The notes under the pieces are model-generated. The model was given only the letters and a program-made list of their open reading frames with translations. It made no database searches and had not been told where the DNA came from. Shown piece by piece: positions 5,491 to 30,664 of a DNA stretch of 32,813 nucleotides. The translations under genes were made by a program, and so were the position numbers. Origin of the DNA: Anaerolineae bacterium (GTDB taxonomy: Bacteria > Chloroflexota > Anaerolineae > Aggregatilineales > Phototrophicaceae). The DNA is taken from the NCBI GenBank assembly GCA_026645745.1, contig JAPKMU010000008.1:1-32813 (forward strand). Reading direction: 5' to 3'. The first letter of the stretch is position 1; each line of letters starts with the position of its first letter.

Positions 5491-6318
5491 TTAGCGGTGA
5501 CCGTCCAGCCATGCCAGAATATCCTGCATCACCGTCTGCCAATTCTTTTCATTATGGATTTCATGCCGTAAGCCGGGGTAGACGATCCGCTGTTTGTCCG
5601 GGCTGGATACACCCTCAAGCGCGAACACGCTCCCATTCGGCGGGCAGATTTTGTCCTCTGCGCCATGCAAAAATAGGACAGGTAAACGCACCGCGCCGAT
5701 CTGCGCCCGCGCCGAATCAACACCGTTCCCGATGCTCACACCGGTACGCACGCGCATCTTGCCTTTCCAGTTCAGCGGGTCAGCGGCAAACGCAGCGGCG
5801 ACGCTTTGATCGGCGGCGAGTTCAGCGGCGGGGGTTGTTTCGGCAAGCGGTATTTTAGGAACAATTTTGTCGAGCAGTTTGGCAGTCGTGAGCAAGAGCG
5901 GCGAAACCGCTTCATTGGCTGCCAGCGGCAAGCCGCTCAGGATCACTCCGCTGAGTTCATCTTGATAGCGGATCACGAACATCAAGCTGATCAGCGATCC
6001 CATGCTGTGACCGTACATAAACAACTTTTGACCCGCGAGTTCTTTTTTGACCGTGCCAATATACGTGTGCAAATCATCAACCAACTCGTCCATCGAATTA
6101 ACGTAGGCACGTTCGCCGCTGCTTTTCCCATGCCCTTGATGATCGAGCGCATACACGGTGTAGCCTGCTTTATTCAAGGCTTCGATCACATGCGTATAGC
6201 GTCCGTGATGTTCGCCGTACCCGTGTACGAGGATGACCGCACCTTTGATCGGATCAAGAGCGTGGTACGCAGCGGTGTAAAGGGTCTGTCCGGTTTTATT
6301 GGTGAACTGCTGGGTCAT
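5491..6318 (-). CDS. Alpha/beta hydrolase, monoacylglycerol lipase-like (serine aminopeptidase S33 fold)
   Basis: 275 residues from the chosen ATG. The nucleophile elbow is GHSMG (103-107, Ser105), the oxyanion-hole segment is VHGYGEHHGRY (31-41), the acid is Asp222 in LHGAEDKICPP, and the catalytic His is about 252 in PGLRHEIHNE. The segment LDHQGHGKSSGER is typical of monoglyceride lipase/lysophospholipase relatives. No signal peptide is seen, so it is cytosolic and probably cleaves glycerol or lysophospholipid esters. The longest frame begins five codons earlier at a TTG (6333), but the ATG at 6318 has GGAG eight bases upstream and is preferred. It follows the V4R-like gene by 33 bases, so the two are probably co-transcribed. 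Exact substrate is unknown. Confidence 0.88.
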   Translation of the reverse strand: MTQQFTNKTGQTLYTAAYHALDPIKGAVILVHGYGEHHGRYTHVIEALNKAGYTVYALDHQGHGKSSGERAYVNSMDELVDDLHTYIGTVKKELAGQKLFMYGHSMGSLISLMFVIRYQDELSGVILSGLPLAANEAVSPLLLTTAKLLDKIVPKIPLAETTPAAELAADQSVAAAFAADPLNWKGKMRVRTGVSIGNGVDSARAQIGAVRLPVLFLHGAEDKICPPNGSVFALEGVSSPDKQRIVYPGLRHEIHNEKNWQTVMQDILAWLDGHR

Positions 6319-6351
6319 GAGAAAAAGCTCCAAAGAAGATGCTGCTGAGGA

Positions 6352-6891
6352 TTAACTGTTCCAGCTTACATGATAAACGCAAGCATTGTCACCGCGTTTG
6401 CGACAGGGATCATGGTGTTCATGAAGGACGCGGGCGAACGACCCTTGAGGGCAGAAGCGCCGGCTCATGCTGTAGATAATCCCATAATCGAACTCGCACG
6501 GGTAGGGGTTCTCGCAAATCATATCGATCTGCTGATCACCCACGATCTCCACATGGTAATACCCGATTTCCCCGCCGCGATGATTCATGTGGTAAGCCAC
6601 ATCAATTGACCGGAGCGCAGCCTCAATGGAGTTGATTTCTGTTGGAAAAATCGCGTTCGTGGGGATTTCCATGCCGATACTGACCAAATCGGACATGCTG
6701 CCGGGGAGGTTTGCGATTTCTCTGAAAGCATCAAGCCAAGCCTGCTGCGGGTACCATTGATCCCGTTGGACATTATCAAGTCCATGCGCCGCAAGAATGG
6801 GGTGAGCGATAGCGCCCATGCCTGCCGTAATCGACAGAATTGTCGTACCATTCACTTCTACATTTGGGGCGAAAGCGATGAACTGAGACAT
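6352..6891 (-). CDS. V4R-like Cys-rich small-molecule-binding domain protein (tentative)
   Basis: 179 residues with no signal peptide or membrane segment. The C-terminal half carries a conserved-looking pattern: CENPYPCEFDYGII (Cys126, Cys132), RRFCP (Cys147), HDPCRKRGDNACVYHVSW (Cys163, Cys171). A terminal CRxxGxxxCxYxVxW with a preceding ENPYPC is characteristic of V4R (4-vinyl reductase)-type domains, which bind small hydrophobic ligands or metal in bacterial sensors. The assignment rests on this memory of the motif and is moderate. The spaced Cys and His residues (His157, His159, His160) could hold a metal. It starts the unit with the lipase-like gene, so it may sense a lipid-related signal. 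AGGA lies about 7 bases before the ATG. Confidence 0.6.
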   Translation of the reverse strand: MSQFIAFAPNVEVNGTTILSITAGMGAIAHPILAAHGLDNVQRDQWYPQQAWLDAFREIANLPGSMSDLVSIGMEIPTNAIFPTEINSIEAALRSIDVAYHMNHRGGEIGYYHVEIVGDQQIDMICENPYPCEFDYGIIYSMSRRFCPQGSFARVLHEHHDPCRKRGDNACVYHVSWNS

Positions 6892-6943
6892 AAGAATCCT
6901 TTACTAAGAAACGTGAGGCAGCACGCATCTAACTTCATTCTAC

Positions 6944-6972
6944 GCAATAATGTTTTGCTAGAGTGGTGTCAA
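6944..6972 (-). promoter_or_regulatory. Possible promoter of the V4R-like/hydrolase unit
   Basis: A perfect TTGACA -35 is on the minus strand at 6972-6967. The hexamer at 17-base spacing is TATTGC (6949-6944), a poor -10. A better-looking TAGAAT (6942-6937) is 24 bases away, too far for the standard spacing. The -35 is convincing, the -10 uncertain. Confidence 0.35.
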
Positions 6973-7034
6973 ACGTGAAAATAGTATGAAATCGAGCATC
7001 ATCAGAGACGAGCTTTCATATCGCCCGCTTCACG

Positions 7035-7415
7035 TCATAATGACATCGGCTCGTCGAGGCGCATCCACGTGCGCCCAATGCGGAACAGACTGCCGGGGCG
7101 AAGGCTCACCCGTTCCTTGATTGCGGATCGCTCCCGTTCGACAAAGGTTCCGTTACGGCTGTCGAGGTCTTCCAGCCAAAATGAGAGGATAAACGGTTCG
7201 GTTACGCTGTCGGTCGCTGTGACCATCATCGACTTGCAGCCGACCCGTGCGTGCAGCCTCGAAACTTGATTATCAAACGGCATGTGAATATCGCAGCCGT
7301 CACGCCGACCGATATGCAAGATCAACTCATCGCCGATATCGGGCTGCTCGAAACGCATCGTTTTGCCATCCAGCGGACCACTCATAAACGTGATCGAGAT
7401 TTCTTTCGTCGTCAT
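7035..7415 (-). CDS. Stand-alone FHA (phosphothreonine-binding) domain protein
   Basis: 126 residues, essentially one FHA domain. The core residues are present: HIGRRDGCDI (Gly36, Arg37), VSRLHARV (Ser52, Arg53, His55) and LEDLDSRNGTFV (Asn88, Gly89), followed by LRPGSLFRIGRTWMRL. FHA domains bind phosphothreonine peptides, usually substrates or activation loops of Hanks-type kinases. It lies 26 bases downstream of the TPR kinase gene on the same strand, so it is probably the third gene of a clp-kinase-FHA operon and the reader of that kinase's marks. An eight-residue insertion-like loop (ATDSVTEP) sits between the SxxH motif and the next strands. Confidence 0.93.
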   Translation of the reverse strand: MTTKEISITFMSGPLDGKTMRFEQPDIGDELILHIGRRDGCDIHMPFDNQVSRLHARVGCKSMMVTATDSVTEPFILSFWLEDLDSRNGTFVERERSAIKERVSLRPGSLFRIGRTWMRLDEPMSL

Positions 7416-7441
7416 GGCTTCTCAAGCCTGTTCCGCGTTGA

Positions 7442-10400
7442 TTACTGGATAAATTTGTCGCGCAGTTCAACACATGCGCGGGCTTGCAGGAGCTTATTCC
7501 GTGATTGTTGATGTCCCGGATCGATACTCAGTGCTTTTTCAAAGGCGATCACTGCATTGGGGCAGTCATCAAGGTTCAGACATGCTTCACCGACGTTGTG
7601 CCAGAACCACGCATCGTTCGGGTTATATTTAACCGCGTTTTCGTAACAAACGCGCGCTTCTTCCCACCGCGAAAGTGCGGCGTATGCCAACCCTTTTCCG
7701 TTCCATGCCCATCCATACTGCGGATCACGGGTCAACGCCGTCTCATAGGCTTCGAGCGCATCTTCAAAAGCGCGCAGACGACGCAGCACTTGTCCCTTCC
7801 GTGACCATGCAATCGCGTTTTCTGGCAGTACCGCCAGCGCGCGTTCCACGACCGCCAGCGCTTGGGTTTCGCGGCGCATCTCCAAGAGGAGATCAACCTG
7901 ATTGGTATAGTACCAGATCACATGGTCGTCTTCCTCAAGCGCTTGCTCATAACTGGCGATTGCTTCTTCGCGCCGCCCCAGTGATTCGAGCGTCAGCCCT
8001 CGCCCGTTCCACGCCCACGCATAACGTGGACTGAGCGCAAGCGCGCGGTCGTAGGCGGTCAGCGCATCTTGAGGACGGTTCAGCCGTCGCAGCGCTTGAC
8101 CGCGTTTTGCCCAACTTTCGGCGTGAGACGGGTTGAACTTGATCGCCTGCTCCAGTGCCTCCAGCGCATCGCGGAAGCGGTTCAAGGAGACGAGTTCATC
8201 CCCTTGGTTGTACCAGTACCACGCATCGCGCGGGTCAATCGCTGATGCTTTGCGGAAGGCGGATAGTGCCTCCTCATGTTGATTCAACGCTGACAAAACC
8301 AGACCGCGCCCATTCCATGCCCACCCATTTTGCGGATCAAGGTCGATGGCGCGGGCATAGCTCCGCAGGGCGTCTTGTAAGCGGTTCAAGCGCCGCAAAA
8401 CTTGCCCGTGTTTCGCCCATGTGCGTGAATTGCGCGAATCGCGCTTGAGCGCTGTTTCGAGCAGACTCAGCGCCGCCGTATGATCGGATCGTCCGGTCAG
8501 CAGGTCAACCTGCTGATACAAATAGTAAGGATCGGTCGAATCGCTGTCGGCAGCATGACGATAAGCATCAAGCGCCGCGTCAATTCTGCCGAGCGCTTCA
8601 TACGTCATGCCCAATTCATTCCATGCCCATGCGTAGGTCGCTTCGGAGTCGACCGCATGACGATACGCTTCAATCGCTTCGTCATATCTGCGGAGATTGC
8701 GCAGCACATTGCCGAGCCGTGCCCAACTGCGCGCGTGCGGCGGGTTGAGTTCGACAGCACTGCGGAGCAGGGGGAGCGCTTCTTCGTATCTGCCGAGCAG
8801 CGCCAGCACATTTCCCTGATTGTAGTAATGCCACACGTCCCCGCGCCCTAGCTGGGATGCTTGCGTGTAGGCTTCAAGCGCTTCCTCGTAACGCTCAAGC
8901 TGTTCAAGGACGATTCCTTTGCCGTTGATCGCCCATGCGTAATCAGGCTGCAAGCGAATCGCGCGATCATACGCCGCGAGCGCATCCTCATAGCGTTTGA
9001 GATAGCGCAGCACTTGACCGAGTTTCGCCCAGCTATACGCATGTTCTGGGTTGATGCGCACCGCTTCTTGTGCGGGCTGCTCGGCTTCTTCATATTGGCT
9101 GAGTTCGACCAGCATTTCGGTCAGGTTATACCAATGCCAGACCTCATCCGGTTGGTAGCGTGCCGCCCGTTTGAACGCGAGGAGCGCTTCTTTGTGCTGT
9201 CCCATCGCTTTCATCGCCAAGCCGTAGCCGTTTTGCGCCCATGCGTAAGTCGGATCAAGATCAATCGCCTGCTGGTAGGCGTGCAGCGCGCTGGGGAAGT
9301 CGTGCATCAAACGGTATACCTGACCGAGCTTCGCCCAACTGTTCGGATGGAGCGGATCGAGCTTCAGCGCTTGTTTGAGCAGGGCAACGGCTTCTTCGTA
9401 GCGTCCGGTATTCTGGAGTGCGTCAGCTTGGTTGTACCAGTTCCACACATCATCAGGATCGATGCGGGTTGCCGTTTGATAACATTCGAGCGCGTCGAGC
9501 GGCTGCCCCATGCGCTCAAGGACGATGCCTTTCCCTTTCCACGCCCACGCATAACCCGGTTGAATCCGCAGCGATTCGTTGTAACACGCGATTGCTTCTT
9601 CGTAGCGGCTGAGCAAGCGGAGGGTGCGCCCTTTACGCGCCCATGCCCATGCATAATCCGGTTGAAGCGCGATCGCTTCGTCGTAAGCGGCAAGTGCTTC
9701 TTCGAGCTTGCCTAACTCCGTCAGCGAATACCCTTTATCCATCAATTCGCGTGCTTCGAGTGCTTGTGCGTTGATCTCGATGATCGGCGTTTCCCCGGTC
9801 ACATCTCCGAAAATCGCGCTCAATTCGTTCACGATCTCCGTCCACGAAGCCGGACGATTTGCCGGGTCTTTTTCAAGACATGCCATCACCAGCGCTTGCA
9901 GACGCGGCGGCAGTGACGCGGCGGCGGCGACCTCAAATGAGGGGCGTTCGTGCAGGTGGGCGTGTATCCACGCTTCCATTTTCTTGACCGGGAAGATGTG
10001 CTTGCCGACCAGCATTTCGTAGATCAAGCAGCCGAACGCATACAAGTCAGAGCGCATATCCACTGCGGCGGATCGCGCTTGTTCGGGCGACATATACGGC
10101 GCTGTGCCGATGATCGCGCCGACACGGGTGAGGCGTTCGTCTGCCGGGGCGCGGCTGGCGCGTTCGAGTTCGATCAGCGGCGGCAGATCGACCAGATCGA
10201 GCGAGCGTACCAAGCCAAAATCTGTCACTTTGGCGATCCCGTCATGCGTGACGAGGATATTGGCGGGTTTCAAATCACGGTGAACCAAGCCGGGGATGCG
10301 TTGGGTCGCATGCTGCATCCCTGACGCGATATGCAAGCCAAACTCAATGGCGTGGCGAACGGTCAAGCGCTTGTGTTCGATCCAACTGCGCAGGTCAGCC

Positions 10401-11644
10401 TCTAAACCTTCTGGTCCGCTGATATGCTCAAGGATGATGTGTGGGCGTCCGACGATATTCTGCACAAGCCGCGCTTGTACGATGTGGCGGTGCTTTTCGA
10501 GCCGTATCCACGTAAACGCCTCTTGCTGGAAGCGGGCGACGGCGCGTTCATTTTCGAGAAATTTGCTCTGAAACGTCTTGAGCGCGACCGGTTCACGCTG
10601 CGTATGATCGTAGCACAGGTACACGACGCCCATCCCGCCGCGCCGCACATCTGCAACTTCGTAGCGCGTGTCGATCATGTCACCGATGCGGAATTCGCCG
10701 CCGACCGGATCAACGGCGCGGTGGGCACGCCCACCCGGTGAACGCCGCTTGAGCGCATCATTTTCGAGCGATGACAGCGAGTTAAGCACATCTTCTTCGC
10801 GGTGAGTCTCGCTTGCTGCGCCGCTGCCTACACTGCCAAAAATGCGCGATTCGCCTTTTTCCTCGTTCACATCGCCGTAGGTGATCAGGTTGTCCTGCTC
10901 AACACGCGCGGGCGGAATCGTGTTCGCGTCCGAAAGCGGAAATTCGGCGTCAAGGCTGGCGGAAAACAGCGACAGATCCGCCGCGTCATCATCCGTCGGG
11001 CTGGCGAACTGCGTTTGCTCCAACGAATCGCTCATGCTGTGCGGCTGCACCATCGACGGGCGGAGATATGCCGCCAGCAGCGAACCTAACTGCGCATCGG
11101 TCAGGTTGATCTCGGATGACCCGACCGTAAATTCGCTTTCGTTCCCTCCCGAATCGGTATTTTCTTCTTTGAGCGAAACGACCGTCTCGTTATGCAGTTC
11201 CCGAACGTTTGAAATATCGTCGCTGTCGTCGTCTTCGGCGGCAGCCCAGAGCGCGACGGCGATATTGCGGCGCGTCGGGTACTGCTGCGCAGAATCGGCA
11301 ACCCAGTCGATAAATTGATTGATCGCGCGGTGCGCCGTCAAGCGATCAATATCATGACGTGCGCGTTCGGCGGCGCGGCGGTAAGCGATCAACGCTTTGC
11401 CGACGTAGAACACCAGTAAGCGGTGATCCGGCGTGAGACTGCGCAGTGCGCAGAGATCACCGAGCGCGAATAGATCATCAATATCCTCGCGACGCAGCGC
11501 AAGCCGACCCAACCGCCGAATTTCGGGATCGGCATCGGTGGCGAAAATATCACGTTCGTCCAAAACGTGCGGTGCGCGCAGCAGTTTGCGCGCTTCCGGG
11601 CTTTGGGTAGGAAGAGGCGTGCGTCCGGTTTGCGGAGGGGTCAT
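7442..11644 (-). CDS. Cytosolic Ser/Thr protein kinase with 22 C-terminal TPRs
   Basis: 1400 residues in three parts. Residues 1-~130 are a helical region of unknown family; ~130-320 is acidic and low-complexity. The Hanks kinase domain is about 328-612: glycine loop RRGGMGVVY with Arg in place of the first Gly, Lys356 in VALK, HRDLKPAN (455-462), DFG at 475-477 and TAPYMSPEQ (514-522). The activation segment is stretched by about 20 residues before that motif. From 628 to 1378 there are 22 consecutive 34-residue TPRs, in which three alternating types recur in strict order. No transmembrane segment was seen, unlike many kinases of this class. It probably phosphorylates proteins docked on the TPR superhelix. 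It lies 6 bases after the ClpC-like gene and 26 before the FHA gene. It has no annotated name that I recognise. Confidence 0.93.
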   Translation of the reverse strand: MTPPQTGRTPLPTQSPEARKLLRAPHVLDERDIFATDADPEIRRLGRLALRREDIDDLFALGDLCALRSLTPDHRLLVFYVGKALIAYRRAAERARHDIDRLTAHRAINQFIDWVADSAQQYPTRRNIAVALWAAAEDDDSDDISNVRELHNETVVSLKEENTDSGGNESEFTVGSSEINLTDAQLGSLLAAYLRPSMVQPHSMSDSLEQTQFASPTDDDAADLSLFSASLDAEFPLSDANTIPPARVEQDNLITYGDVNEEKGESRIFGSVGSGAASETHREEDVLNSLSSLENDALKRRSPGGRAHRAVDPVGGEFRIGDMIDTRYEVADVRRGGMGVVYLCYDHTQREPVALKTFQSKFLENERAVARFQQEAFTWIRLEKHRHIVQARLVQNIVGRPHIILEHISGPEGLEADLRSWIEHKRLTVRHAIEFGLHIASGMQHATQRIPGLVHRDLKPANILVTHDGIAKVTDFGLVRSLDLVDLPPLIELERASRAPADERLTRVGAIIGTAPYMSPEQARSAAVDMRSDLYAFGCLIYEMLVGKHIFPVKKMEAWIHAHLHERPSFEVAAAASLPPRLQALVMACLEKDPANRPASWTEIVNELSAIFGDVTGETPIIEINAQALEARELMDKGYSLTELGKLEEALAAYDEAIALQPDYAWAWARKGRTLRLLSRYEEAIACYNESLRIQPGYAWAWKGKGIVLERMGQPLDALECYQTATRIDPDDVWNWYNQADALQNTGRYEEAVALLKQALKLDPLHPNSWAKLGQVYRLMHDFPSALHAYQQAIDLDPTYAWAQNGYGLAMKAMGQHKEALLAFKRAARYQPDEVWHWYNLTEMLVELSQYEEAEQPAQEAVRINPEHAYSWAKLGQVLRYLKRYEDALAAYDRAIRLQPDYAWAINGKGIVLEQLERYEEALEAYTQASQLGRGDVWHYYNQGNVLALLGRYEEALPLLRSAVELNPPHARSWARLGNVLRNLRRYDEAIEAYRHAVDSEATYAWAWNELGMTYEALGRIDAALDAYRHAADSDSTDPYYLYQQVDLLTGRSDHTAALSLLETALKRDSRNSRTWAKHGQVLRRLNRLQDALRSYARAIDLDPQNGWAWNGRGLVLSALNQHEEALSAFRKASAIDPRDAWYWYNQGDELVSLNRFRDALEALEQAIKFNPSHAESWAKRGQALRRLNRPQDALTAYDRALALSPRYAWAWNGRGLTLESLGRREEAIASYEQALEEDDHVIWYYTNQVDLLLEMRRETQALAVVERALAVLPENAIAWSRKGQVLRRLRAFEDALEAYETALTRDPQYGWAWNGKGLAYAALSRWEEARVCYENAVKYNPNDAWFWHNVGEACLNLDDCPNAVIAFEKALSIDPGHQQSRNKLLQARACVELRDKFIQ
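7511..9652 (-). repeat. Seven-fold 306-bp tandem super-repeat (three TPRs per unit)
   Basis: TPRs 2-22 of the kinase fall into three types in fixed order: C (xxSWAKLGQVLRxLxRYxDALxAYDRAI), A (AWAWNGKGLxLExLGRxEEAL) and B (VWxWYNQxDxLxxxxRYEEALxLL). The C-A-B block of 102 residues (306 bp) occurs seven times without a break. At DNA level the AWAW/GWAW segment (CCATGCCCATGCxTA-like on the plus strand) recurs about every 306 bases from 9541 to 7700. The units have diverged but stay in register. Confidence 0.88.
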
Positions 11645-11650
11645 GGCGTC

Positions 11651-14059
11651 TCACACACGAGCGGCTGAAAACTCAAGCAGCCCTTTTTCTTTATCGACTT
11701 CGACAACGATGGTATCGCCGGGGTTAAAGGCGTCTTCAACAATACGCGCACTGAGCGGACGGGTGAGCAGTCGTTCGATGGCGCGGCGCAGGGGGCGCGC
11801 ACCGTTGATCGGATCATGACCCCGGTTGAGGATCATATCGCGCGCGCCGGTAGTCAGTTCCAAACTCAAGCGCTGTTCTTCCAAGCGGCGGCGCAGTTCA
11901 TTTAACTGTAAGTCCAAAATTTGAGCCAGCGTATCGGGGTTCAACGGACGGAACGTGACTACTTCATCGACACGATTGAGGAATTCCGGTCGGAAGAACC
12001 GCTTGAGATGCGCACTGTAATCCGGTAAGTGATCCGCCCCCCCGATGAATCCGAGCGATTTTCCTGTTTCTTCGGTGCCAATATTGCTCGTCATGATGAA
12101 AACCGAGTTGCGCGCATCGACGACTCCGCCGTGTGCGTCGCTCAAGCGTCCTTCATCGAATACTTGAAGGAAAATATCAAACACCTCTGGCGCGGCTTTT
12201 TCGACCTCATCCAGCAGCACAACGGTATACGGGCGGCGGCGGAGTCCGTCAGTCAATTGTCCGCCGCGCTGGGTGTCTTTGTAACCGGGCGGCGCACCGA
12301 TCAAGCGGGCGACAGTGTGCGCGTCGTGGAATTCGGACATATCCAAGCGCAGCATCGCGTCATCACTGCCGAACAAGAAATTCGCCAATGAGCGCGCAAG
12401 TTCCGTCTTGCCGACGCCGGAAGGACCTAAGAATAAGAACACGCCGATCGGACGGTTCGGGTCTTTAAGTCCGGCACGCGCAGTCTTGATCGCTGCCGCC
12501 ACCGTGCGCACCGCTTCATCTTGCCCGATCACACGACGCAGCAGGATGTTTTCGACTTCGGATAGGCGGCGCTTTTCATCCTTCGTCAGTTCGCTGATCG
12601 GGATGCCTGTCCAATCGCTCAACACGGCAGCGATGACCTCAATGCGAACTTCGTTTGGTGATGGATCGGGTTCTTCGTCCGGCGTGATGGTGCGGATCAC
12701 TACGCGGGCGCATGCTTCGTCAAGCAGATCGAGCGCTTTATCGGGAAGGCGGCGATCTGGCAGGTAACGGACAGAGAGCCGCACCGCTGCATCGAGCGCT
12801 TCCGGTCGGATCGTGACGCTGTGATGTTTTTCCAGCCGTTCGCGTTGACCCATCAAAATCTTGAGCGTGTCATTTTCGCTCGGTTCTTCGATGTCAATCG
12901 GGCGGAAGCGGCGGTCAAGCGCGGGGTCTTGTGCGATGGCGCGCCGGTATTCTTCATGCGTGGTCGCGCCGATACACACGATCTCGCCGCGTGCGAGCGC
13001 TGGTTTCAGAATATTCGCCGCGTCTAAGTTGCTGTCAATCGTATCGCCTGCGCCGACGATGGTGTGAATCTCGTCGATGAACAGAATCACGCTGCCCGCT
13101 GTGCGCGCTTCGTCAACAATGCCGATCAAGCGTTCCTCAAATTGACCGCGCAGCGATGTCCCCGCAACGAGCGTGCCGATCTCGATTTGCACAACGCGCT
13201 TATCGAGTAGAGACTTCGGCGCGGTTTTTTCATAAATGGCGTATGCCAACCCTTCGACGACTGCCGTTTTGCCGACTCCGGCATCACCCAGTAGGAGCGG
13301 ATTGTTTTTCTTACTGCGCGCCAGCGTGCGCGCCACCGCGCGGATTTCGCGCTCACGGGCAATCGCCGGACCGATTCTGCCATCGGCGGCTTGCGCGGTT
13401 AAATCACGTCCGTATTTATCGAGCAGGGGAGTCGGCACGCGCCCACCTGTCGAAACGCCACGCGGCACAGCAATTTCGCTGGACGAAAAGCGGAACGGAT
13501 CATCCGGCAGCGAGTCATCAAGATCAGAGAAATTGAGCAGATCATCATCGCTGTCGATATGAAGTTCGGACGGAAGCGAATCGGGAATCGGGTTGGCAAG
13601 GTCGCGCTCGTAAGCATCGTTGTGCAAACGCCGCAGCCAATGTTCAACACGGAAACCCATCTCTTGGAGCTTACGCACCGGAACGCTTTCGCCTTCTTCC
13701 AAGAGCGCAAGCAGGAGATGAGCTTCGTCCACGTCTTCGCTTTCATCACGATCCGCGATGAAGATGGCGATTTGCAGCACCATTGCCGCGCGTGGGGTGA
13801 GCGGCAGCGTTTCGGTCAAGCTGCCTTCGCCTGTGCCGAGATCGCGGCGGAGATCGGCGCGCACATTGCGCGGGTTTAACTGCGCGCGGCGCAAAAGCTG
13901 CCATGTCGGTCCGGTTTCATTTCTCGTCATGGCAATGAAAAAATGTTCCACACCAATGAAGGCGTGTTGTAAGCGTCGTGCTTCTTCAGCGGCGGCAGCA
14001 ATATGAGGAGCACAGCGCGCACGCAGTTCTTTTTCAGGAATATCGGGCGGTATAGTCAC
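11651..14059 (-). CDS. ClpC-like double AAA+ unfoldase without a middle domain
   Basis: 802 residues. A Clp N-terminal repeat domain spans about 10-150 (HAFIGVEHFFIAM, EAHLLLALLEEG), then an acidic linker (about 165-200, DSDDDLLNFSDLDDSLPDD). AAA1 has Walker A GDAGVGKT (258-265), Walker B ILFIDE (325-330) and GATTHEEYRRAI. AAA2 has Walker A GPSGVGKT (545-552), Walker B VVLLDE (613-618), TSNIGTE and sensor-2 GARPLRR (753-759). Only about 25 residues separate the AAA1 lid from VLSDWTGIPISEL, so the coiled-coil M-domain of ClpC/ClpB is missing. A SLGFIGG loop (668-674) sits where ClpP-docking loops occur. It likely unfolds proteins, perhaps for ClpP, which is not in the window. The start is GTG with GAGG about 10 bases upstream. 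It heads an operon with the TPR kinase and FHA gene, suggesting phospho-control. Confidence 0.88.
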   Translation of the reverse strand: MTIPPDIPEKELRARCAPHIAAAAEEARRLQHAFIGVEHFFIAMTRNETGPTWQLLRRAQLNPRNVRADLRRDLGTGEGSLTETLPLTPRAAMVLQIAIFIADRDESEDVDEAHLLLALLEEGESVPVRKLQEMGFRVEHWLRRLHNDAYERDLANPIPDSLPSELHIDSDDDLLNFSDLDDSLPDDPFRFSSSEIAVPRGVSTGGRVPTPLLDKYGRDLTAQAADGRIGPAIAREREIRAVARTLARSKKNNPLLLGDAGVGKTAVVEGLAYAIYEKTAPKSLLDKRVVQIEIGTLVAGTSLRGQFEERLIGIVDEARTAGSVILFIDEIHTIVGAGDTIDSNLDAANILKPALARGEIVCIGATTHEEYRRAIAQDPALDRRFRPIDIEEPSENDTLKILMGQRERLEKHHSVTIRPEALDAAVRLSVRYLPDRRLPDKALDLLDEACARVVIRTITPDEEPDPSPNEVRIEVIAAVLSDWTGIPISELTKDEKRRLSEVENILLRRVIGQDEAVRTVAAAIKTARAGLKDPNRPIGVFLFLGPSGVGKTELARSLANFLFGSDDAMLRLDMSEFHDAHTVARLIGAPPGYKDTQRGGQLTDGLRRRPYTVVLLDEVEKAAPEVFDIFLQVFDEGRLSDAHGGVVDARNSVFIMTSNIGTEETGKSLGFIGGADHLPDYSAHLKRFFRPEFLNRVDEVVTFRPLNPDTLAQILDLQLNELRRRLEEQRLSLELTTGARDMILNRGHDPINGARPLRRAIERLLTRPLSARIVEDAFNPGDTIVVEVDKEKGLLEFSAARV

Positions 14060-14131
14060 GATTGCCCAACCTCTAATCCGTGTGATACGTTCAACTACAG
14101 AACAAGCGTTTACCGTTGGCGATTCTGCTTA

Positions 14132-14137
14132 AGTATA
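14132..14137 (-). promoter_or_regulatory. Possible -10 element for the clp-kinase-FHA operon
   Basis: The minus strand reads GCGCTATACT, with TATACT at 14137-14132, in the 187-base divergent gap. No clear -35 is at 16-18 bases (nearest TTTCAA). The leader would be about 65 bases to the GTG at 14059. Confidence 0.35.
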
Positions 14138-14179
14138 GCGCATGTCATTTTGAAACCCATCATCCATGACCTTTGCCCG

Positions 14180-14208
14180 TTTTGAGGGATAGGGTTGTGC
14201 GCTATAAT
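14180..14208 (+). promoter_or_regulatory. Predicted promoter of the transmembrane kinase gene
   Basis: A perfect TATAAT lies at 14203-14208, with a weak TTTTGA -35 (14180-14185) at 17-base spacing. Transcription would begin near 14215, about 32 bases before the ATG. The region between this and the opposing -10 (14132-14137) holds no gene and is the divergent regulatory gap. Confidence 0.5.
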
Positions 14209-14246
14209 GTCCACATGTGCGGGACAAAGCATAACGTAGGAATTAC

Positions 14247-16076
14247 ATGGCGCTCACCGATCCGCTAATCGGACGCATGTTAGGCGATTACCGCGTGATT
14301 GATATTCTCGGTCGCGGTGGCATGGCGCGGGTGTACCGGGGATATGATCCGAAACTGGAACGGTACGCCGCCATCAAAGTAATCGACTCGGCGCTGCTTA
14401 GTAATCAAGAATCCGAGGATGAATACCGCGCCCGTTTTCGGCGGGAAGCGCGTGCGATTGCCCGCTTGAACCATCCCAATATTGTTAGTATTTTTCAATA
14501 CGGCGAAGTTGACGCGCTTTATTACATGGCGATGAATTTCATCGAAGGGCGCGACTTAGGACAAATCCTCAAAGAATACGCGACTTACAGCCAGCGAATC
14601 CCGGTTGAACAGGTGCTGCGGATCGTCAGCGATACCGCGTCAGCGCTCGATTATGCGCATTCCGGCGGCGTGATCCACCGTGACGTAAAACCATCGAATA
14701 TCATGGTGACGCCGGAAGGACGCGCGATCTTGACCGATTTTGGGTTGGCGTTGAGCGTGCCCGAAGGCTCAATTGGGAATACCTTCGGAAGCGCACATTA
14801 CATCGCGCCGGAGCAGGCGGTATCTTCAGCGCAAGCCGTCCCGCAGAGCGACTTATACTCGCTGGCAATTGTGATTTATCAAATGCTGACCGGACGTGTC
14901 CCATTTGATGATCCCAGTGCGATGAGCGTTGCCCTCCGTCATATCAGCGATTTACCGCCGCCGCTGCGTAATTTCGCGTCGGAAATTCCCGCCGGGGTTG
15001 AGCAGGTTGTTCTGAAGGCGCTCGAAAAAGATGTGAAGCGCCGTTACCCCGACGGTCAAACGATGGTGCAGGCGCTCGAAGCGGCGTATGCGCCTTTCCT
15101 CGGCTATTCGTTGAGCCGCCCGACCGGGACGACACCGCTTTTGCGGCGTATTTCAACCGATGAGATCAAAGTCACGCCGGGGCAGTTCGCTCCGGTTGAG
15201 AATCCCACATGGTCAGAAAGTGTGCCGCTGCAAGCGCGCAGCACCGATACATCGTCGCGCGCATCGTTACTGCTTGCCCGCGCCGAGTCGCTGACCTCAA
15301 GACCGGGATCAACCAAGCCAAAGCCGGAAACCCGGCAGGCATCTCCGCTGCGGTTGATCGCCGTGATTCTGTTGTTGGTGGCGATTGCGGCGGCGGCGCT
15401 GTTTGTGCTGACGAATACGCCGCCGAATAATCTCGGCGGGGGCGATGGTACGGCAGTCGTTATTGGCGCGGATCAAACCGACGAAGTGACAGCAGTACCG
15501 ACTGACGCGCCGCCAACCGAGACGCCGCTGCCAGATACACCAACGCTTGCATCTCCTACGACCGAAACGCCTTCCACACCGACCGATATTCCGACGGAAA
15601 CCCCGGTGCGCCCGCCAACGGTCACGATCACGCCAGAAGGGTTTGTTGTTCCCGACTCGATCAGCAGCGAAACGCCGACGCTTTCGCCGGGTGCGCCGAT
15701 CGTGTTGACCTACGATACCTTTGCGCTCGTGCTGCAAAACCGCTCATCTGAATTGGTGAATATCAGCGGGATTTCATTCGTCCGGCTCAACCAGCTAGGC
15801 ACGCCGATCACATTTTCGGTCAGCGATTGGGACCCGGTATCGCGGAACGGCTCATACTTCATGCCGAGCGGCGGGTGTTATCACATCTGGTTGATCTCTC
15901 AGGAATTTCAAGGTATCCCCGCGCAGTGTTCCGCGCGTTTTGGGTGGGAGGCGGTCGGTACAAACCGCCAATTCTGGATCAGCAGCGAACCGGGGGCGAC
16001 GTTTGAAGTGCAGCGCGCTGGCAGCGTGCTGGCAACCTGCCCGACGAACGCTGGACAGTGCAGCTTTACCCCTTAA
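14247..16076 (+). CDS. Transmembrane Ser/Thr protein kinase with extracytoplasmic domain
   Basis: 609 residues. The N-terminal Hanks kinase domain (about 15-283) has LGRGGMARVY (21-30), Lys44 in AAIKV, HRDVKPSN (144-151), DFG (164-166) and GSAHYIAPEQ (181-190), and looks active. A juxtamembrane Ser/Thr-rich linker (about 300-365) precedes one membrane segment (LRLIAVILLLVAIAAAALFVL, about 368-388). Outside is a Pro/Thr-rich stalk (about 400-475), then a roughly 120-residue domain with four Cys (CYHIW, AQCSARFGW, ATCP, GQCSF) that could form disulfides and sense an external ligand. I do not recognise this domain. Layout parallels PknB-like receptors but without PASTA repeats. It is divergent from the clp-kinase-FHA operon. 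An AGGA lies five bases before the ATG. Its stop overlaps the convergent ATPase gene's stop. Confidence 0.93.
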   Translation: MALTDPLIGRMLGDYRVIDILGRGGMARVYRGYDPKLERYAAIKVIDSALLSNQESEDEYRARFRREARAIARLNHPNIVSIFQYGEVDALYYMAMNFIEGRDLGQILKEYATYSQRIPVEQVLRIVSDTASALDYAHSGGVIHRDVKPSNIMVTPEGRAILTDFGLALSVPEGSIGNTFGSAHYIAPEQAVSSAQAVPQSDLYSLAIVIYQMLTGRVPFDDPSAMSVALRHISDLPPPLRNFASEIPAGVEQVVLKALEKDVKRRYPDGQTMVQALEAAYAPFLGYSLSRPTGTTPLLRRISTDEIKVTPGQFAPVENPTWSESVPLQARSTDTSSRASLLLARAESLTSRPGSTKPKPETRQASPLRLIAVILLLVAIAAAALFVLTNTPPNNLGGGDGTAVVIGADQTDEVTAVPTDAPPTETPLPDTPTLASPTTETPSTPTDIPTETPVRPPTVTITPEGFVVPDSISSETPTLSPGAPIVLTYDTFALVLQNRSSELVNISGISFVRLNQLGTPITFSVSDWDPVSRNGSYFMPSGGCYHIWLISQEFQGIPAQCSARFGWEAVGTNRQFWISSEPGATFEVQRAGSVLATCPTNAGQCSFTP

Positions 16077-17470
16077 GGTGTGCCGATCAAGGTTGCGGTG
16101 GGCTGCGCGGTCGCGTTGGGAAGACCCGGCGGCTCACTGGCGACACTGGCGATTAGAATTGCTGTCGAAATTAGCAGCGCCAGCGCGAATAACATGATCA
16201 ACCGGATTGAACTGCGGCGGCTTGCGCCTATATTCCCTGCGCGTCGTTCGGCTAACCGCGTAGAGACATCTACGCGGGCGCGGCGATCCGAGGCGCGCGA
16301 GGGTTCACGCTCCCCGCGAATGACCCGTTCGCCCAAACGCGCATGATCGATCAACCACGAATGCAGTAATCCACCGTTCAAGCGTATTTCACCCGGCGTA
16401 AGGATCACGGCTTCGCTGTATTCCAGCCCGCGCACTGCCGCATTGATCGAGACGAGATCGAGCGGGTAATCCGTCTCGACAAGGTAACTTTCGATCCTGT
16501 CAGCCGTGATCGCCGCACCGGGGTCGCTTTGAGTAATCGTGCTGATCGCCGTCAGGGTCAAGCGCTCGTTGGTGTTGAGTCCACGCCATAATTCCGCGTA
16601 ATCGCGTTCGCCGTAAGCGTACACGGTCGGCAGCATCGCTTTAATATCATCGGCGGTCATCTCACTGTGTACAGTGTTGATCGACCACTTGCGATACATC
16701 AAATAGCCGAACTGCTGGAGCAAACCGGGAGCGCCGCCGCTTGCTGCAAGCGCAGCATCAATCGCGCTGTCGTTGACTTCATATGCGGCGCGTACAGGTT
16801 CGCGGAGCAGCCATTCGGCGTCCGGGCGGGTGAGTGCGCCAAGTCGAATTACATTGGTAACGGACACCAGCGGCGCAAACGCCGGAATTTGATTTTCATG
16901 TTCTGCGCCGAGTGCGAGGATCACATCCATCGGGTGATCGGCTCTGCCAATCAGCCCGTGAACATAACTCAGGCTGTCCGCGGGAAGAATGGAAGATCGA
17001 ACTGCGTGCATCCATTCATCTGCGTCATCGATCACGAACAGCAGGCGGCGCGTACCGCGCAGCGATCCCAACATGGCGGGGAGAAATGTTTGTTCAAACC
17101 ATAGGCGCGCATCGTCTTCAGGCGGCGCGAGATCGCTCAGGCGGGTCGTCGTGAAGCCAGCGCTGATCAATGAAGATGTTGCCGCTTGCGCCCATAACAA
17201 TAACCAATCGGTTTCATCTTCGATGGGCGCGGCGCGCGGGGATACATACGCGCCGAGATGCGATTCAGTAAACAGCGCGCGTGCGGCGTACAGCAGGGCG
17301 GTCTTTCCAATGTGCCGCCTGCCGAGAATGCACAATGCGCCGCTCGAATCTGAGCGAGCGAGATGGCGGTAAATACGCGCAAGGGCATCCGCGCGACCCG
17401 CGAACGGCGCGTTTTCGACATCATCACCGTAATCATGATGATAAGGGTTAGGCGGAATCTGGTTCGACAT
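16073..17470 (-). CDS. Tail-anchored AAA/STAND-like P-loop ATPase
   Basis: 465 residues. Walker A is GRRHIGKT (50-57) and Walker B LLFVIDDADE (143-152), preceded by an ORC/Cdc6-like PFAGRADALARIYRHL opening typical of AAA_16/archaeal-type ATPases. Residues about 300-380 look like a winged-helix region (NERLTLTAIST, ending LNGGLLHSWLIDHA). A basic stretch leads to one C-terminal membrane segment (about 423-444, IRLIMLFALALLISTAILIASV) and a short Thr/Pro tail, so the ATPase should face the cytoplasm. This class often acts as a switch in signalling or conflict systems; function here is unknown. It ends on the same TTAA as the convergent transmembrane kinase. The ATG is only 7 bases after a TATAAT, so its mRNA may be leaderless. 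Confidence 0.8.
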   Translation of the reverse strand: MSNQIPPNPYHHDYGDDVENAPFAGRADALARIYRHLARSDSSGALCILGRRHIGKTALLYAARALFTESHLGAYVSPRAAPIEDETDWLLLWAQAATSSLISAGFTTTRLSDLAPPEDDARLWFEQTFLPAMLGSLRGTRRLLFVIDDADEWMHAVRSSILPADSLSYVHGLIGRADHPMDVILALGAEHENQIPAFAPLVSVTNVIRLGALTRPDAEWLLREPVRAAYEVNDSAIDAALAASGGAPGLLQQFGYLMYRKWSINTVHSEMTADDIKAMLPTVYAYGERDYAELWRGLNTNERLTLTAISTITQSDPGAAITADRIESYLVETDYPLDLVSINAAVRGLEYSEAVILTPGEIRLNGGLLHSWLIDHARLGERVIRGEREPSRASDRRARVDVSTRLAERRAGNIGASRRSSIRLIMLFALALLISTAILIASVASEPPGLPNATAQPTATLIGTP

Positions 17471-17477
17471 ACACCGA

Positions 17478-17483
17478 ATTATA
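17478..17483 (-). promoter_or_regulatory. Extended -10 of the tail-anchored ATPase gene (leaderless candidate)
   Basis: The minus strand reads TGTTATAAT, an extended -10 (TGn plus a perfect TATAAT at 17483-17478). Only seven bases separate it from the ATG at 17470, so transcription should start at or next to the start codon, leaving no room for a Shine-Dalgarno. Confidence 0.6.
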
Positions 17484-17495
17484 ACACGCGCACGA

Positions 17496-17504
17496 TGCTA
17501 TAAT
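17496..17504 (+). promoter_or_regulatory. Extended -10 of the UPF0200-like kinase gene
   Basis: TGCTATAAT (TGn at 17496-17498, TATAAT at 17499-17504) points to a start near 17511, giving a leader of about 38 bases before the GTG at 17549. It lies 15 bases from the opposing TATAAT, so the two promoters overlap. Confidence 0.6.
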
Positions 17505-17548
17505 GCGGCTGTTTTGCCGCTGTTGTTTTTGATCGAGGATGTGGGATT

Positions 17549-18121
17549 GTGACGAATGTTACACCGCCGCGCACGCTGGCACTGGTCGGAATGCCCGGTG
17601 CGGGAAAATCATTGTGCGCCGCGCACTTGCAAGACTTGGGATATTTTCAGTTTCGCTTCGGCGGAATCGTTGTGGATGAAGTGGTGCGGCGCGGGCAGGC
17701 GATCAACCCGGCGAATGAAAAAGCGGTTCGGGAGGAGTTCCGCGCACGGGAAGGCATGGACGCAATCGCCAAACGCGCGCTGCCGATCTTGCGCGATGCG
17801 CTGACGCGGCATCCCACGATCATTATTGATGGGTTGTACAGCTTCAGTGAGTACAAGACGCTCAAAGGCGAATGGGGTGACAGCCTCATCGTGATCGCGA
17901 TCACCTGTGCGCGTGAACTCCGCTATGCGCGTTTGGTCAGCCGACCGGAACGACCGCTCACCCGCGCGGAAGCCGAACAGCGCGACTACAACGAGATCGA
18001 GAATATCGAGAAGGGGGGACCGATTGCGATGGCAGATTTCACGCTCTTGAACGACGGCTCTCCTGACGAGTTGATCGGCGCTTTGGATCGACTGCTCGGC
18101 GTGTTGAAGGTCATGCCATGA
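17549..18121 (+). CDS. P-loop nucleotide kinase, UPF0200/dephospho-CoA kinase-like
   Basis: 190 residues. The P-loop is LVGMPGAGKS (12-21); later conserved stretches are REGMDAIAKRALPIL (67-81), IIIDGLYSFSEYKTLK (91-106), AITCARELRYARLVSRPER (117-135), EQRDYNEIENIEKGGPIAMADF (143-164) and a final LLNDGSPDEL. This order (GMDAVAKR, IDGIRS-E, RD-E, I-ADY, N-G) is that of the UPF0200 family, best known from archaea and related to CoaE-type dephospho-CoA and nucleoside-monophosphate kinases. Substrate is not established by sequence. The GTG has GAGGA nine bases upstream. It is transcribed divergently from the tail-anchored ATPase, and a new promoter follows it, so it is probably monocistronic. A normal bacterial CoaE is not in the window. 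Confidence 0.75.
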   Translation: MTNVTPPRTLALVGMPGAGKSLCAAHLQDLGYFQFRFGGIVVDEVVRRGQAINPANEKAVREEFRAREGMDAIAKRALPILRDALTRHPTIIIDGLYSFSEYKTLKGEWGDSLIVIAITCARELRYARLVSRPERPLTRAEAEQRDYNEIENIEKGGPIAMADFTLLNDGSPDELIGALDRLLGVLKVMP

Positions 18122-18152: not shown

Positions 18153-18182
18153 TTGCGCATCACCGACCGTACTCTCTATACT
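18153..18182 (+). promoter_or_regulatory. Predicted promoter of the exported protein/cytochrome operon
   Basis: TTGCGC (18153-18158) and TATACT (18177-18182) are 18 bases apart. A start near 18189 gives a leader of about 30 bases before the ATG at 18219. The longer reading frame that begins at this TTGCGC would overlap the promoter, which supports the later start. Confidence 0.45.
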
Positions 18183-18218
18183 TCCTTTGGATTTATATGC
18201 CATCTGGAGACTGGGCTT

Positions 18219-21200
18219 ATGCGGCGCTTTATGATTGCGTTCGCGCTTGTCGGTGTCTGGGCGCTGCTCGTGTTGAGTGGGACTTCCTCGCGTTCGTCCG
18301 CTCAGGCGGCAGCGCCGCGTCCCAGCCCCGGCGATCCGCCTGTTGGTTCTTTGATCACGTTTTCGCCGCCGGATGCTGATGGAGTGATCACCATCACCGG
18401 GTTGGCGGGGGCGGTTGTTCCCAACGGCAGTGTGATCATTCGCAATTTGTACACCGAAGCGACGGTTGTCGCTCCGGTTGGCGTTACCGGAGCGTTTACC
18501 GCTCACATTTATGGCGAAGGAAATACCCCATTCTGGATCAGCCGGGTAGATACCGCCCAACCGCCGGAAGCTTCGCGGCTGCCGGGGAGTGTTCTCGGCG
18601 GGGCAGGTACGATACTCTGGTCGGGTTTTCCGCGTGAACTTGACCTGAATGCAGTCACACCCCTAGCCGTCGATGGTGATACCGGTGATTGGGATGCGCT
18701 GGCGGAGTCGGGCATTAACGGCTCACTTCATGCGGTGCGCAGCCGCGAGGCGCTGTGGGTCGCGGTGCGTGACTCACGGATCGCTGCGGTGGACGGAGAA
18801 GCTGTCTCGGTGCGGGTGGTGTTCACGGTGGATACCATCACTTACGCGGTCAATGCGTCACTGCGTGATGCGGGGCTGTCCGCTTTTGAACGCTTGAATC
18901 CTAACCGTTCATCGCTGGATGCGCTCAACGTGACGGCATTTGCCGGGGATGGCGCGGCGGAACTGCGCATCCCGCTGACATTCCTTGTTCGGATCAACAC
19001 ACTCAGCATGGTTGAAGTCGCGCTGCTCGACGCGGCGGGTGAAGAACTCGTTGTGTATCCTGCCTCGTCAGAAGTGCTGTTTCTCGATGTTGATGATGGT
19101 GTGTATCGCGCGAACGGTGCTGCGGATGGCGAAACGTTCTCTGTGGGGGGCGTGTTAGGCGAAGGCGCGGCATTTTGGTCAGCGTGGGGGCGCGCAAGTT
19201 CGCTTGCGCTTGAGGCGGGCGAGTCGCTGAATATCGAACTCGATGTGACGTTTCATGAGGTCAACGTTCCCGCTGATCTGCGGTTGTGGGCAGCGGTCAG
19301 CTTGCAGCCGATCATCGAAAGCGGCGAGGATGGCTGGGAATACCCCGGCGATGTCGGGACGAATAACGGTTGGTCGGGGGTATCGCTGAACGGGCTGCCC
19401 GTCGATAACGTGGATCGGGATGAAATTGCGCTGATCGTCCCAGTTACGCCGAACCAGTTGATCTTTCACGAAAATTCTGTCGATTTCGCGCTCGATTTTA
19501 CGCTCACACTGCCGGAAAGCGTGGGACGTGGGTTATATGTGCCGCGCTTGGAAGGCGTCGCCGCGCAAGATGATCGTGATCCGGCGCTTTTGATGCTCGA
19601 CGAAGCCGCGTATTGGGCGCGCAACCCGCTGTTTGGCGTTGGTGAGGGTGCATCCCGCCAGCCGATCACCCGCCTGCCGCTGGTGCTCAACGTGGGTGGC
19701 ATTGAAAATGCACCACTGCCGAGCGCGCTCTTATACGATACGCCGAGCGATGGATCACGCGGGATCATGGCGGACGAAAACCGCGCTGATTATACGCTCA
19801 CAAACCGCGTGATCTTCAACGCGCCGACGTATATTTTGCCACCGTTCCGCGATGGCACGGATGACGCGCTGACGTATATCCTAGAACCGTATTTGTTGAA
19901 TATTTTGCCAAATGCGTATGACTCGAATGCCGCGCCGCTGATTCCGTTTGATTTTTCCGGCGCGAATGCGAATGCGTCCGTACTGCATGTTGAAGTCACC
20001 AAGCCGGATGGGACGACGGTTGATCTAGGTGAACTGCCGATTTTGCAATCAGCGCTTTCGACGGCGGCTTTGAACGAACGCACCGTGTTTGGCGCGCAGT
20101 CTCCGGTCGATATGTACCGTTTGACCACCTACGATCCGGCATTGATCCGCTTCTCGTTCGATCAATACGGCGAATATACGATTAACAGCCGCTTCAGCGT
20201 GCGTGATGTGTGGGGAAATACGTATCAAGGCGGCGGCACGTATCATCTGCTGATTGGCGAACAGTTCGAGATCATCCCAGCGGTGCTTCCGGGAACGCCG
20301 ATGCAGCTTGGGGATGTGTTCCATGCGGGCGTGACGCTGATGCCGGGTGCGCCCGCCGATGTAACGGTCAATTTGACTGTATACCCGCTGGACGGCAGCG
20401 ACCCGATCACCCAAGTATTCAACGGGCAGTCGAACCGTTATGGCGTTTTCGCCCCTAGCAGCGATCAAGTATTCACCTTCGCTGTGCCGGGGATGTATGT
20501 CGCGGATTACGAAGCCCGCTATACCGATACATCGGGGCGCATCTGGGCGGCGAGCTTACGTTCGGTCGGCTTGATCGCTTCACCTGATTCGACGCTGATC
20601 GCGCGTGGTCAGCGCGGTTTGCTCGGTTCAGATGAACTTCCACTGACATGGTTCCGCGCCGACGGCTACCGGGGCGAAGATGTATCGCCTGTTACGCCGT
20701 ATTTCCCATACTTCTCCGGCGATGTCGCATGGATCGGGGAAACAGCCGAAAGCGGGATCGCGCCCGCGCTCCGCTTGCAAGACCTTGAAGGCGCATACGC
20801 GCAGCAGGTGATCGATGCGCTGACGGATGACGCTCAAGCACGGCTCGAATATGAAATGCAAACCGGGTTGAATGTCCCGCAAGCCGCCGCGCTCGGTGAA
20901 CTCCCTGTGTACGGCGACGCGGGCGGCTACGCTTTCGTGAGTGCGGTGCGTCCGGGGCTGTCGCTGCGGGCATTCTTGCGCGCGGGCGGCTTCAGCGGTC
21001 TGCCGCTGTGGTGGGACAGCGACGATGTGTACAACCGTCAAATCGGCGCGGGAACAACGGGCGACCGACCCGGCGATTTCGCATTCTTGTTCGGCGGTGC
21101 GTTGATCCGCAGTGAAACCGTCGAATCCGTCTCGATTTACGGCGCGTTGAGCGTTGTCATCGACGACAACGACTCACGCGGCGAACGGCTGTATCCTCCG

Positions 21201-21992: not shown

Positions 21993-22007
21993 GCGGGGAG
22001 AACGCAC

Positions 22008-30400: not shown

Positions 30401-30638
30401 GGGAGATATTTCGCTCGCGGAGCGGCGCGAATTGGTGGCTGATCTGGCGATGGACTTGCAGCGCGTCTCTGATCTGCTGTTGGCGATCACGAATCGAGTC
30501 GAAGCCAAGCCATTGTTGGAGCAAAACAGCCTGACGCGCAAGCTCGACACGAATCGGCAGCGACCGGAAAACACACTCGAATTTTACCGGTTCGTGCAGG
30601 GGTATTTCCGCGCGCGGATACGTCAACCCGCGCCGTAA
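27453..30638 (+). CDS. Large cytosolic protein, GAP1-like N-terminal region (tentative)
   Basis: 1061 residues, no signal peptide and no membrane segment. The N-terminus (VEHFYYGQVLYEGKPQGELRLLAKSAGI, then SVLRLPPA, HIFVQSQVG) and the part at about 150-200 (LLAAVIIGVPVVIKGAPTDLNARIGMIEGLLALLPHPARVSVTFATHV) recall the layout of GTPase-associated protein 1 (GAP1-N/GAP1-M) domains of bacterial conflict and signalling systems; this is pattern memory, not a search result. The remaining 800 residues are helical, Leu/Ala-rich and solenoid-like. No P-loop or kinase motif is visible. The start is GTG at 27453 with a poor Shine-Dalgarno; GTG at 27462 is an alternative. It is followed by a strong terminator and then a Ser/Thr kinase gene on the same strand. 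Confidence 0.65.
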   Translation: MALVEHFYYGQVLYEGKPQGELRLLAKSAGIKADHFSEVISVLRLPPAVADPTLAVALLRGKSIPHIFVQSQVGEAGGVLCHYYLPPLEMVRQLGGNIRRLLGLLEPSMPQFTRTDATLPPVEFDKTDPLTIEQQQEAMLALLGATNDRFDVIEALLAAVIIGVPVVIKGAPTDLNARIGMIEGLLALLPHPARVSVTFATHVTPTSFANAQIRFVTSDTPDPSDALIYTWGGKKTDGVKPENDYARYIRSQLRLDTELVVDKTTLLTPIAGWRLRRGEPLSEALTYASFRLTMDEAVSNGLPVEASEVARVLSVDPTLSEEQQTAYVRHLLALVMATDDVEDADLVVSAAGKPPLEPIILAQMTDMLNNGKALRVYRAVTRWLTNPAGFKGMYWIDLAQKAALAYAQGMVRSRDSKAMNLFLAQVRENASAFEAKYIVSRLLEIALPLAASDPVLAQTSVLLAATTLPLDSWQRFINLKPILGQLPRALGRLIAYLNADANITLAPGLMAQAASEFGSSWRSLMLARLSEVALAVGRMDVFDAPTLSALAFAAGTTYGDMYDSVMRRVVYHFGEDAALKALGEDAAKALLEILLARGAYADLASELGRQGRILYPSGRQVEYAAMVRTLFASTPILIGSVPECVAALSAEGTKPLPLIMAHFGVMEQHQWSPQLRDVAGQLVSHLGAHRLILEGLPTDLMLELLGALSAARDLPNTIRAAVLIPMNTARRGDDGIPAMLHMYRVLTWEPNVEGAAEVQKAALENLRRFVRWSSEGSARNLINQVARVDEGLIESLKATYVIRRMLGGENIADYAYALNTAANFLQDTGAAYTDRQRLPLHNVIVGDLDSLNGGVSDLERKQLADALIDLIKLASGLATQHRVAHIKETEAEIQALLDGTGEAHSVIDMFRVMSGYFGRGRRVVPKMERLMDNHPLGDRTAPALLRELQTIVMVLKNALLTFPYSGKISVRAVEIVGEIESLWGDISLAERRELVADLAMDLQRVSDLLLAITNRVEAKPLLEQNSLTRKLDTNRQRPENTLEFYRFVQGYFRARIRQPAP

Positions 30639-30664
30639 GCGCTCTCAACCGCATATTGAGTGTC

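Follow-up and report, generated by a model that had tools for sequence, protein, structure and literature searches.

A conserved kinase–FHA–Clp gene module of the Aggregatilineales and its possible role in phosphorylation-controlled protein unfolding

Organization and conservation of the locus

The analysed window, a stretch of 32,813 nucleotides, constitutes one entire contig (C644) of the 5.66-Mb, 655-contig genome of an Anaerolineae bacterium (Chloroflexota). Its positions 7035–17470 contain five genes, encoding a Clp/Hsp100 ATPase, a kinase with tetratricopeptide repeats (the TPR kinase), an FHA protein, a receptor kinase and a membrane-anchored ATPase. The minus strand carries the gene for an M-domain-less two-ring Clp/Hsp100 ATPase (11651–14059; 802 aa; assigned with Pfam, NCBIfam and the PDB), followed after 6 bases by that of the TPR kinase (7442–11644; 1400 aa; an N-terminal domain of unknown fold, a linker, a Hanks kinase domain and 22 TPRs by Pfam) and, 26 bases further, by that of the single-domain FHA protein (7035–7415; 126 aa; PF00498, 52.7 bits). 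Direct reading places 187 bases (14060–14246) between the Clp gene and the divergent, plus-strand gene of the receptor kinase (14247–16076; 609 aa; by Pfam a PknB-like kinase with a transmembrane (TM) segment, a P/T-rich stalk and an outer domain). The latter is convergent with the minus-strand gene of a tail-anchored P-loop ATPase (16073–17470; 465 aa; weak AAA_16 match), with a tail-to-tail overlap of 4 bases. No sigma-70 promoter consensus above chance was found in the region 6800–17700, including the divergent intergenic region. The original prediction had described this layout, with its strands, gaps and divergent and convergent gene pairs, as well as the 22 TPRs of the 1400-residue kinase, the single FHA domain, the extracytoplasmic domain of the membrane kinase and the tail anchor of the P-loop ATPase, and all of these were confirmed (the repeats and the FHA domain by Pfam and a repeat count).

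To analyse the distribution of the genes, high-scoring orthologues were tallied across 121 genomes of the Aggregatilineales, the order of the host within the Anaerolineae (Chloroflexota). The Clp ATPase was found in 74 genomes, the TPR kinase in 71 and the FHA protein in 70; all three were present in 70 genomes and none in 47. The Clp ATPase occurs without the TPR kinase in 3 genomes only, while the reverse was never observed. The Fisher P values for this co-occurrence (near 1e-29) overstate it, since related genomes are not independent. Three genomes (G076, G041 and G026) lack all three core genes, although relatives from the same genus or family carry them; G026 is 88% complete, and one of these joint absences may represent an assembly gap.

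The three core genes are also mostly adjacent. Among the named loci with enough flanking sequence to be testable, the TPR kinase follows the Clp ATPase in 59 of 73 and the FHA protein follows the TPR kinase in 39 of 47; many of these neighbours overlap by 4 bases or are about 10 bases apart. Where the Clp gene has been relocated, the TPR kinase and FHA genes are still neighbours in several genomes (G099, G071, G082, G022, G003, G043 and G046). The receptor kinase is divergent from the Clp gene in 35 of 61 testable loci, and the anchored ATPase lies nearby in 24 of 42. The co-occurrence of five gene families, as originally proposed, therefore holds for the Clp ATPase, TPR kinase and FHA protein, whereas the two remaining genes are often, but not always, nearby. 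The host genome yields 36 kinase and 27 FHA matches, but the P-loop ATPase is present in a single copy; since, in addition, the arrangement is kept across genera and families, the grouping is more than chance. For the same reason of copy number, paralogy is an unlikely explanation for the anchored ATPase found nearby in other families.

Within the family of the host, the flanking genes (encoding an ABC transporter, an AMP ligase, a 1279-aa protein and a di-haem peroxidase) are syntenic too, and part of the adjacency is thus inherited gene order. This would suit an explanation in which the Clp ATPase serves general proteostasis or the stress response and merely has its ancestral locus in common with signalling genes, to which no mechanism links it. 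However, the flanks differ between families and the core stays: the module is retained in four families (f3, f4, f7 and f8) that no longer have the transporter, the AMP ligase and the 1279-aa protein as its neighbours, with the anchored ATPase relocated to the FHA side in f8. Moreover, the core genes are lost together, and housekeeping is covered by further Hsp100/Clp genes of the host genome, of ClpC type, ClpB type and ClpX. We consider this explanation improbable.

Of 249 genomes searched at class level with a Clp profile, 12 contained a full orthologue, and all 12 belong to the order; outside it no orthologue was found by profile in the class or the phylum, where the next best matches were only CHAT-Clp fusions. 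A search for the TPR kinase outside the order gave one weak match (G275). Inheritance of the module appears to be vertical within one order, with mostly a single copy in a syntenic position. It is well supported that the Clp ATPase, TPR kinase and FHA protein constitute a real conserved module, inherited together and lost as a unit. Our literature searches, which covered open-licence papers, returned no description of a kinase–FHA–Clp combination, and the module is apparently undescribed in that literature. The original prediction of an undescribed conserved module thus survives the comparison of gene neighbourhoods in related genomes.

Signalling and membrane components

The TPR kinase begins with a conserved domain (residues 1–140; 11225–11644, minus strand) that has no Pfam match and looks helical by eye. 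Its kinase domain (residues 335–606), in which the catalytic K, HRD and DFG are invariant in 58/58 orthologues, is followed by exactly 22 consecutive 34-residue TPRs (residues 631–1378; 7511–9754, minus strand). The array shows a three-repeat superperiod of 102 residues, its self-identity being 0.38 at lag 102 vs 0.30 at lag 34. The length of the array (765–800 aa) and its 102-residue period are kept in 53 of the 58 orthologues; family f7 and a small number of others have shorter, less regular arrays. No TM segment was seen in this protein. Among solved structures the kinase domain is nearest to PknB/StkP, with PknG absent from the hits; on this similarity, and because no PknG model was among the family matches listed, membership of the PknG family was rejected.

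The N-terminal and kinase domains are separated by a low-complexity, presumably disordered linker (residues 141–312; 10709–11224, minus strand), which is barely alignable across orthologues, in which [SDEN]ETR and T-x-x-D/E motifs nevertheless recur. In 52 non-redundant linkers T-x-x-[DE] was observed 157 times vs 91 expected (standard deviation 8) and [SDEN]ETR in 25 vs 0.7 expected, the expectations coming from composition shuffles, which leave shared ancestry uncorrected. The same linkers show no enrichment of S-x-x-D and a depletion of T-x-x-[ILV].

In the FHA protein the residues predicted to contact phosphothreonine (G36, R37, S52, R53, H55 and N88) are invariant in 50/50 orthologues, and G89 is conserved in 49 of the 50; the presence of the GR, S-R-x-H and N-G signatures points to a phosphothreonine reader. 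A search of PDB sequences with this protein gave no match at E 0.001. The Clp linker and the juxtamembrane segment of the receptor kinase were considered as FHA docking sites and rejected, neither being enriched in T-x-x-[DE]. Because the motifs are enriched in the TPR-kinase linker and not in these two segments, recognition of the TPR kinase by the FHA protein gains weight as a hypothesis. Docking of the FHA protein on the TPR-kinase linker is moderately supported by these sequence patterns and by analogy with PknG.

In the host family and in f4, a gene encoding an alpha/beta hydrolase (5491–6333, minus strand; PF12146) frequently follows the FHA gene on the same strand. In three loci (L040, L052 and L065) the two genes adjoin or overlap, and the hydrolase gene is present in L072/L073. 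It is possibly an operon extension of the module.

The receptor kinase contains a TM segment near residues 370–388, and its K, HRD and DFG are invariant in 43/43 relatives. Its extracytoplasmic domain (15696–16073, plus strand), which has no Pfam match by sequence, contains four cysteines that are invariant in the alignment. In the predicted model of this domain (local confidence score, pLDDT, mostly above 90) it folds like the lamin-tail Ig domain: each of the top 16 Foldseek matches was a lamin Ig-like domain (best E 2.1e-4, probability 1.00, TM-score by target 0.53–0.59).

The anchored ATPase has a C-terminal TM segment near residues 425–443 with about 22 residues beyond it, and in complete orthologues the TM segment is followed by a short outer tail of 18–65 residues. 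The P-loop and the Walker B Asp are conserved. Its model (pLDDT 84.6) suggests an ORC/Cdc6/STAND-like fold, the best Foldseek match being ORC2/Cdc6 (E 7.6e-11). NLR and Avs3 proteins are among the weaker matches, which, together with kinase domains that match the PADLOC models PD-T4-6 and MAD6, might indicate an anti-phage defence system that combines sensing by kinases with a STAND-like ATPase. PADLOC, however, gave no match for the FHA protein or the anchored ATPase, and a known anti-phage system was rejected because its component models were not all matched and the matches were generic (kinase, TPR and AAA). The apparently vertical inheritance of a syntenic, mostly single-copy module also speaks against defence, which we regard as very improbable.

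The Clp ATPase

The Clp ATPase comprises Clp_N, D1, AAA_lid_9, AAA_2 and ClpB_D2-small domains. Its nearest solved structures are those of ClpC, but alignment with Bacillus subtilis ClpC revealed no M-domain, only a short variable linker between the first (D1) and second (D2) AAA+ rings. The Walker A and B sites of both rings are intact in 41/41 orthologues, and the Arg-finger motifs are intact as well. A pore aromatic residue (KYR) has been termed invariant in AAA+ unfoldases (PMC9663308). In the D1 pore loop AGTSLRGQFEER (13130–13165, minus strand) this residue is lost, TSLRG being present in 41/41 orthologues. The D2 pore loop GAPPGYKDTQRGGQ (12257–12298, minus strand) reads PPGY[KR] in all 41; its tyrosine (Tyr593) is invariant, and the next residue is K/R, not V/I. 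The aromatic pore-1 residue is therefore present in D2 and absent from D1. The ClpC-type paralogue encoded in the host genome has MYRG in D1 and GYVG in D2, and the D2 pore loops of the host Clp paralogues are GYVG/GYIG. The earlier assignment to a ClpC-like AAA+ protein without an M-domain is confirmed, but plain ClpC identity was rejected on account of the absent M-domain and of the altered D1 pore loop.

It has been established that docking of Clp ATPases on ClpP depends on I/L/M-GF loops (PMC9753991). A candidate loop of this type (LGF; 12047–12055, minus strand) was identified in D2, and [LIVMF]GF is present in 41/41 orthologues. LGF is also found in the ClpC-type paralogue of the host, and a ClpB-type paralogue (G088, locus L197), with KYRG and GYVG, lacks the GF loop. 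Since the GF loop is kept, the host genome encodes two ClpP proteins, and the aromatic residue is lost in D1 and its tyrosine kept in D2, the simplest reading is that this protein is a ClpP-compatible unfoldase, probably driven by D2.

The main rival explanation is a PknG-like switch with no proteolytic output, in which the TPR kinase and FHA protein would regulate an enzyme or a membrane process, while the Clp ATPase would act as a ClpP-independent chaperone that assembles or recycles complexes of the TPR kinase or the membrane ATPase. Such a role would be in agreement with the persistence of the TPR kinase–FHA pair where the Clp gene has moved, with the existence of a PknG/OdhI system that has no Clp component, and with the loss of the D1 aromatic residue and the basic residue after the D2 tyrosine, which indicate a specialised machine. 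Evidence to the contrary is that [LIVMF]GF is kept in every one of the 41 orthologues, when the ClpB-type paralogue is without it, and that the Clp gene and the TPR-kinase gene almost always occur together (the TPR kinase never without the Clp ATPase). We judge the non-proteolytic switch rather unlikely.

A separate observation concerns the linker that follows the N-domain of the Clp ATPase (residues 146–205; 13445–13624, minus strand), which is Thr-poor and, in many orthologues, rich in Ser/Asp-Leu-Phe stretches such as DSDLFDDF. It is possible that these stretches represent a separate docking motif.

Proposed function and comparison with known systems

Taking these data together, we tentatively favour, at somewhat less than even confidence, a dedicated phospho-signalling and unfolding module, i.e. 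a relay of TPR kinase and FHA protein, similar to that of PknG, which is coupled to a dedicated Hsp100 and possibly feeds ClpP. Conservation, co-inheritance, sequence motifs and predicted folds are shown by the data above; phosphorylation of the kinase by itself, binding of the FHA protein, transfer to the Clp ATPase, involvement of ClpP, the direction of the signal and the clients are inferred. The soluble TPR kinase would autophosphorylate threonines in its own acidic disordered linker, and the FHA protein would bind the resulting phosphothreonines, as GarA/OdhI does on PknG. The regular 22-TPR solenoid could serve as a scaffold binding clients or partners, and clients might be passed via this scaffold and the FHA reader to the co-encoded Clp ATPase, which would unfold them by a D2-dominated grip and most likely deliver them to ClpP. 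Placement at the membrane and input would come from the receptor kinase with its lamin-tail-like domain and from the ORC/STAND-like ATPase anchored in the membrane. A more specific form of the idea is phosphothreonine-gated degradation, in which the TPR kinase and FHA adaptor choose clients for a dedicated Clp unfoldase of divergent sequence working with ClpP, under control of the receptor kinase, in a manner loosely parallel to eukaryotic phospho-degrons; this form appears doubtful.

Several observations weigh against the proposed relay. Shared ancestry may inflate the linker motif counts, the ETR motif is confined to about half of the linkers and is absent in family f7, and the linker copy in the window is degenerate, reading SETHREED where the L044 orthologue has a clear SETRIED. 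The loss of the D1 pore tyrosine in all orthologues makes it less likely that D1 unfolds proteins processively in the ordinary way, and neither the receptor kinase nor the anchored ATPase is a constant neighbour. The one-order range, loss as a unit, the fixed 22-repeat scaffold, the candidate phospho-motif and the odd pore loop make control of unfolding or degradation by threonine phosphorylation cheaply testable. Although many bacteria have Hanks kinases and FHA proteins, an output is known for few of them; a link to a dedicated Hsp100 would supply one.

Two further parts of the window deserve mention. The region 18153–23834 encodes the 1279-aa protein, for which Pfam gave no match, and then a fusion of a beta-propeller and a MauG-like di-haem peroxidase; this pair is syntenic beside the anchored ATPase across the host family. 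In the region 27453–32811 a gene whose 1061-aa product weakly matches GAP1-M adjoins the gene of a third kinase, which contains HEAT-like repeats and has a very weak TCAD9 match; this is possibly a ternary conflict-type locus.

The receptor kinase shares the kinase–TM–extracytoplasmic topology of PASTA Hanks kinases (PknB, PrkC and StkP), which give its best NCBIfam match, below cut-off, but its outer domain, with four cysteines and a predicted lamin-tail-like Ig fold, is not PASTA. The Clp ATPase resembles ClpC/ClpA in its N-domain, two AAA+ rings with intact Walker and Arg-finger motifs, and hydrophobic-Gly-Phe loop, all features of ClpP-associated ATPases. It differs in the lack of an M-domain (unlike ClpC), in TSLRG instead of KYRG and PPGY[KR] instead of GYVG, in its acidic Ser/Asp-rich linker after the N-domain, and in being encoded beside a kinase and an FHA protein. 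The CHAT-Clp fusions, the next-best profile matches in the phylum, are also without an evident M-domain, but these are proteins of 1200–1240 aa with a CHAT domain, canonical pore loops and no TPR-kinase/FHA neighbours. Such fusions (about 1200 aa) are common in one other Chloroflexota family, f77 (e.g. L168:1393–5079, minus strand, and L169–L179). The usual CHAT catalytic motif is SACxS; in the fusions the catalytic Cys position looks substituted (SHYES).

The Hsp100 of the type VI secretion system is ClpV. In such systems threonine phosphorylation is carried out in a pathway of the PpkA kinase and Fha (PMC3953482). A membrane Thr kinase, an FHA protein and an Hsp100 in one locus form the same functional trio as PpkA, Fha and ClpV, which suggested that the module might regulate a contractile injection system or a machine of type VI-like character. 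This view is largely refuted and scarcely credible: membership of a contractile system was rejected, since the sheath gene VipB/TssC was found in 0/121 genomes, and the window contains neither sheath nor baseplate genes. A second, soluble TPR kinase and the retained ClpP loop are further differences.

A close parallel is with the actinobacterial PknG–GarA/OdhI–GlnX/GlnH system. In PknG, autophosphorylated N-terminal threonines recruit an FHA regulator, and the TPRs have been proposed to dock a membrane protein (PMC8546545). The two systems have in common a soluble Hanks kinase with C-terminal TPRs, a disordered Thr-bearing extension N-terminal to the kinase domain and a partner with a single FHA domain. 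In contrast, the TPR kinase described here is PknB/StkP-like, is without a rubredoxin domain and has its 22 TPRs in a 34/102-residue pattern; the FHA protein has no conserved N-terminal Thr extension; and the partners are a Clp ATPase and a receptor kinase, not GlnX/GlnH. The module appears to combine two kinds of system that are already known, TPR-kinase/FHA relays and Clp unfoldases.

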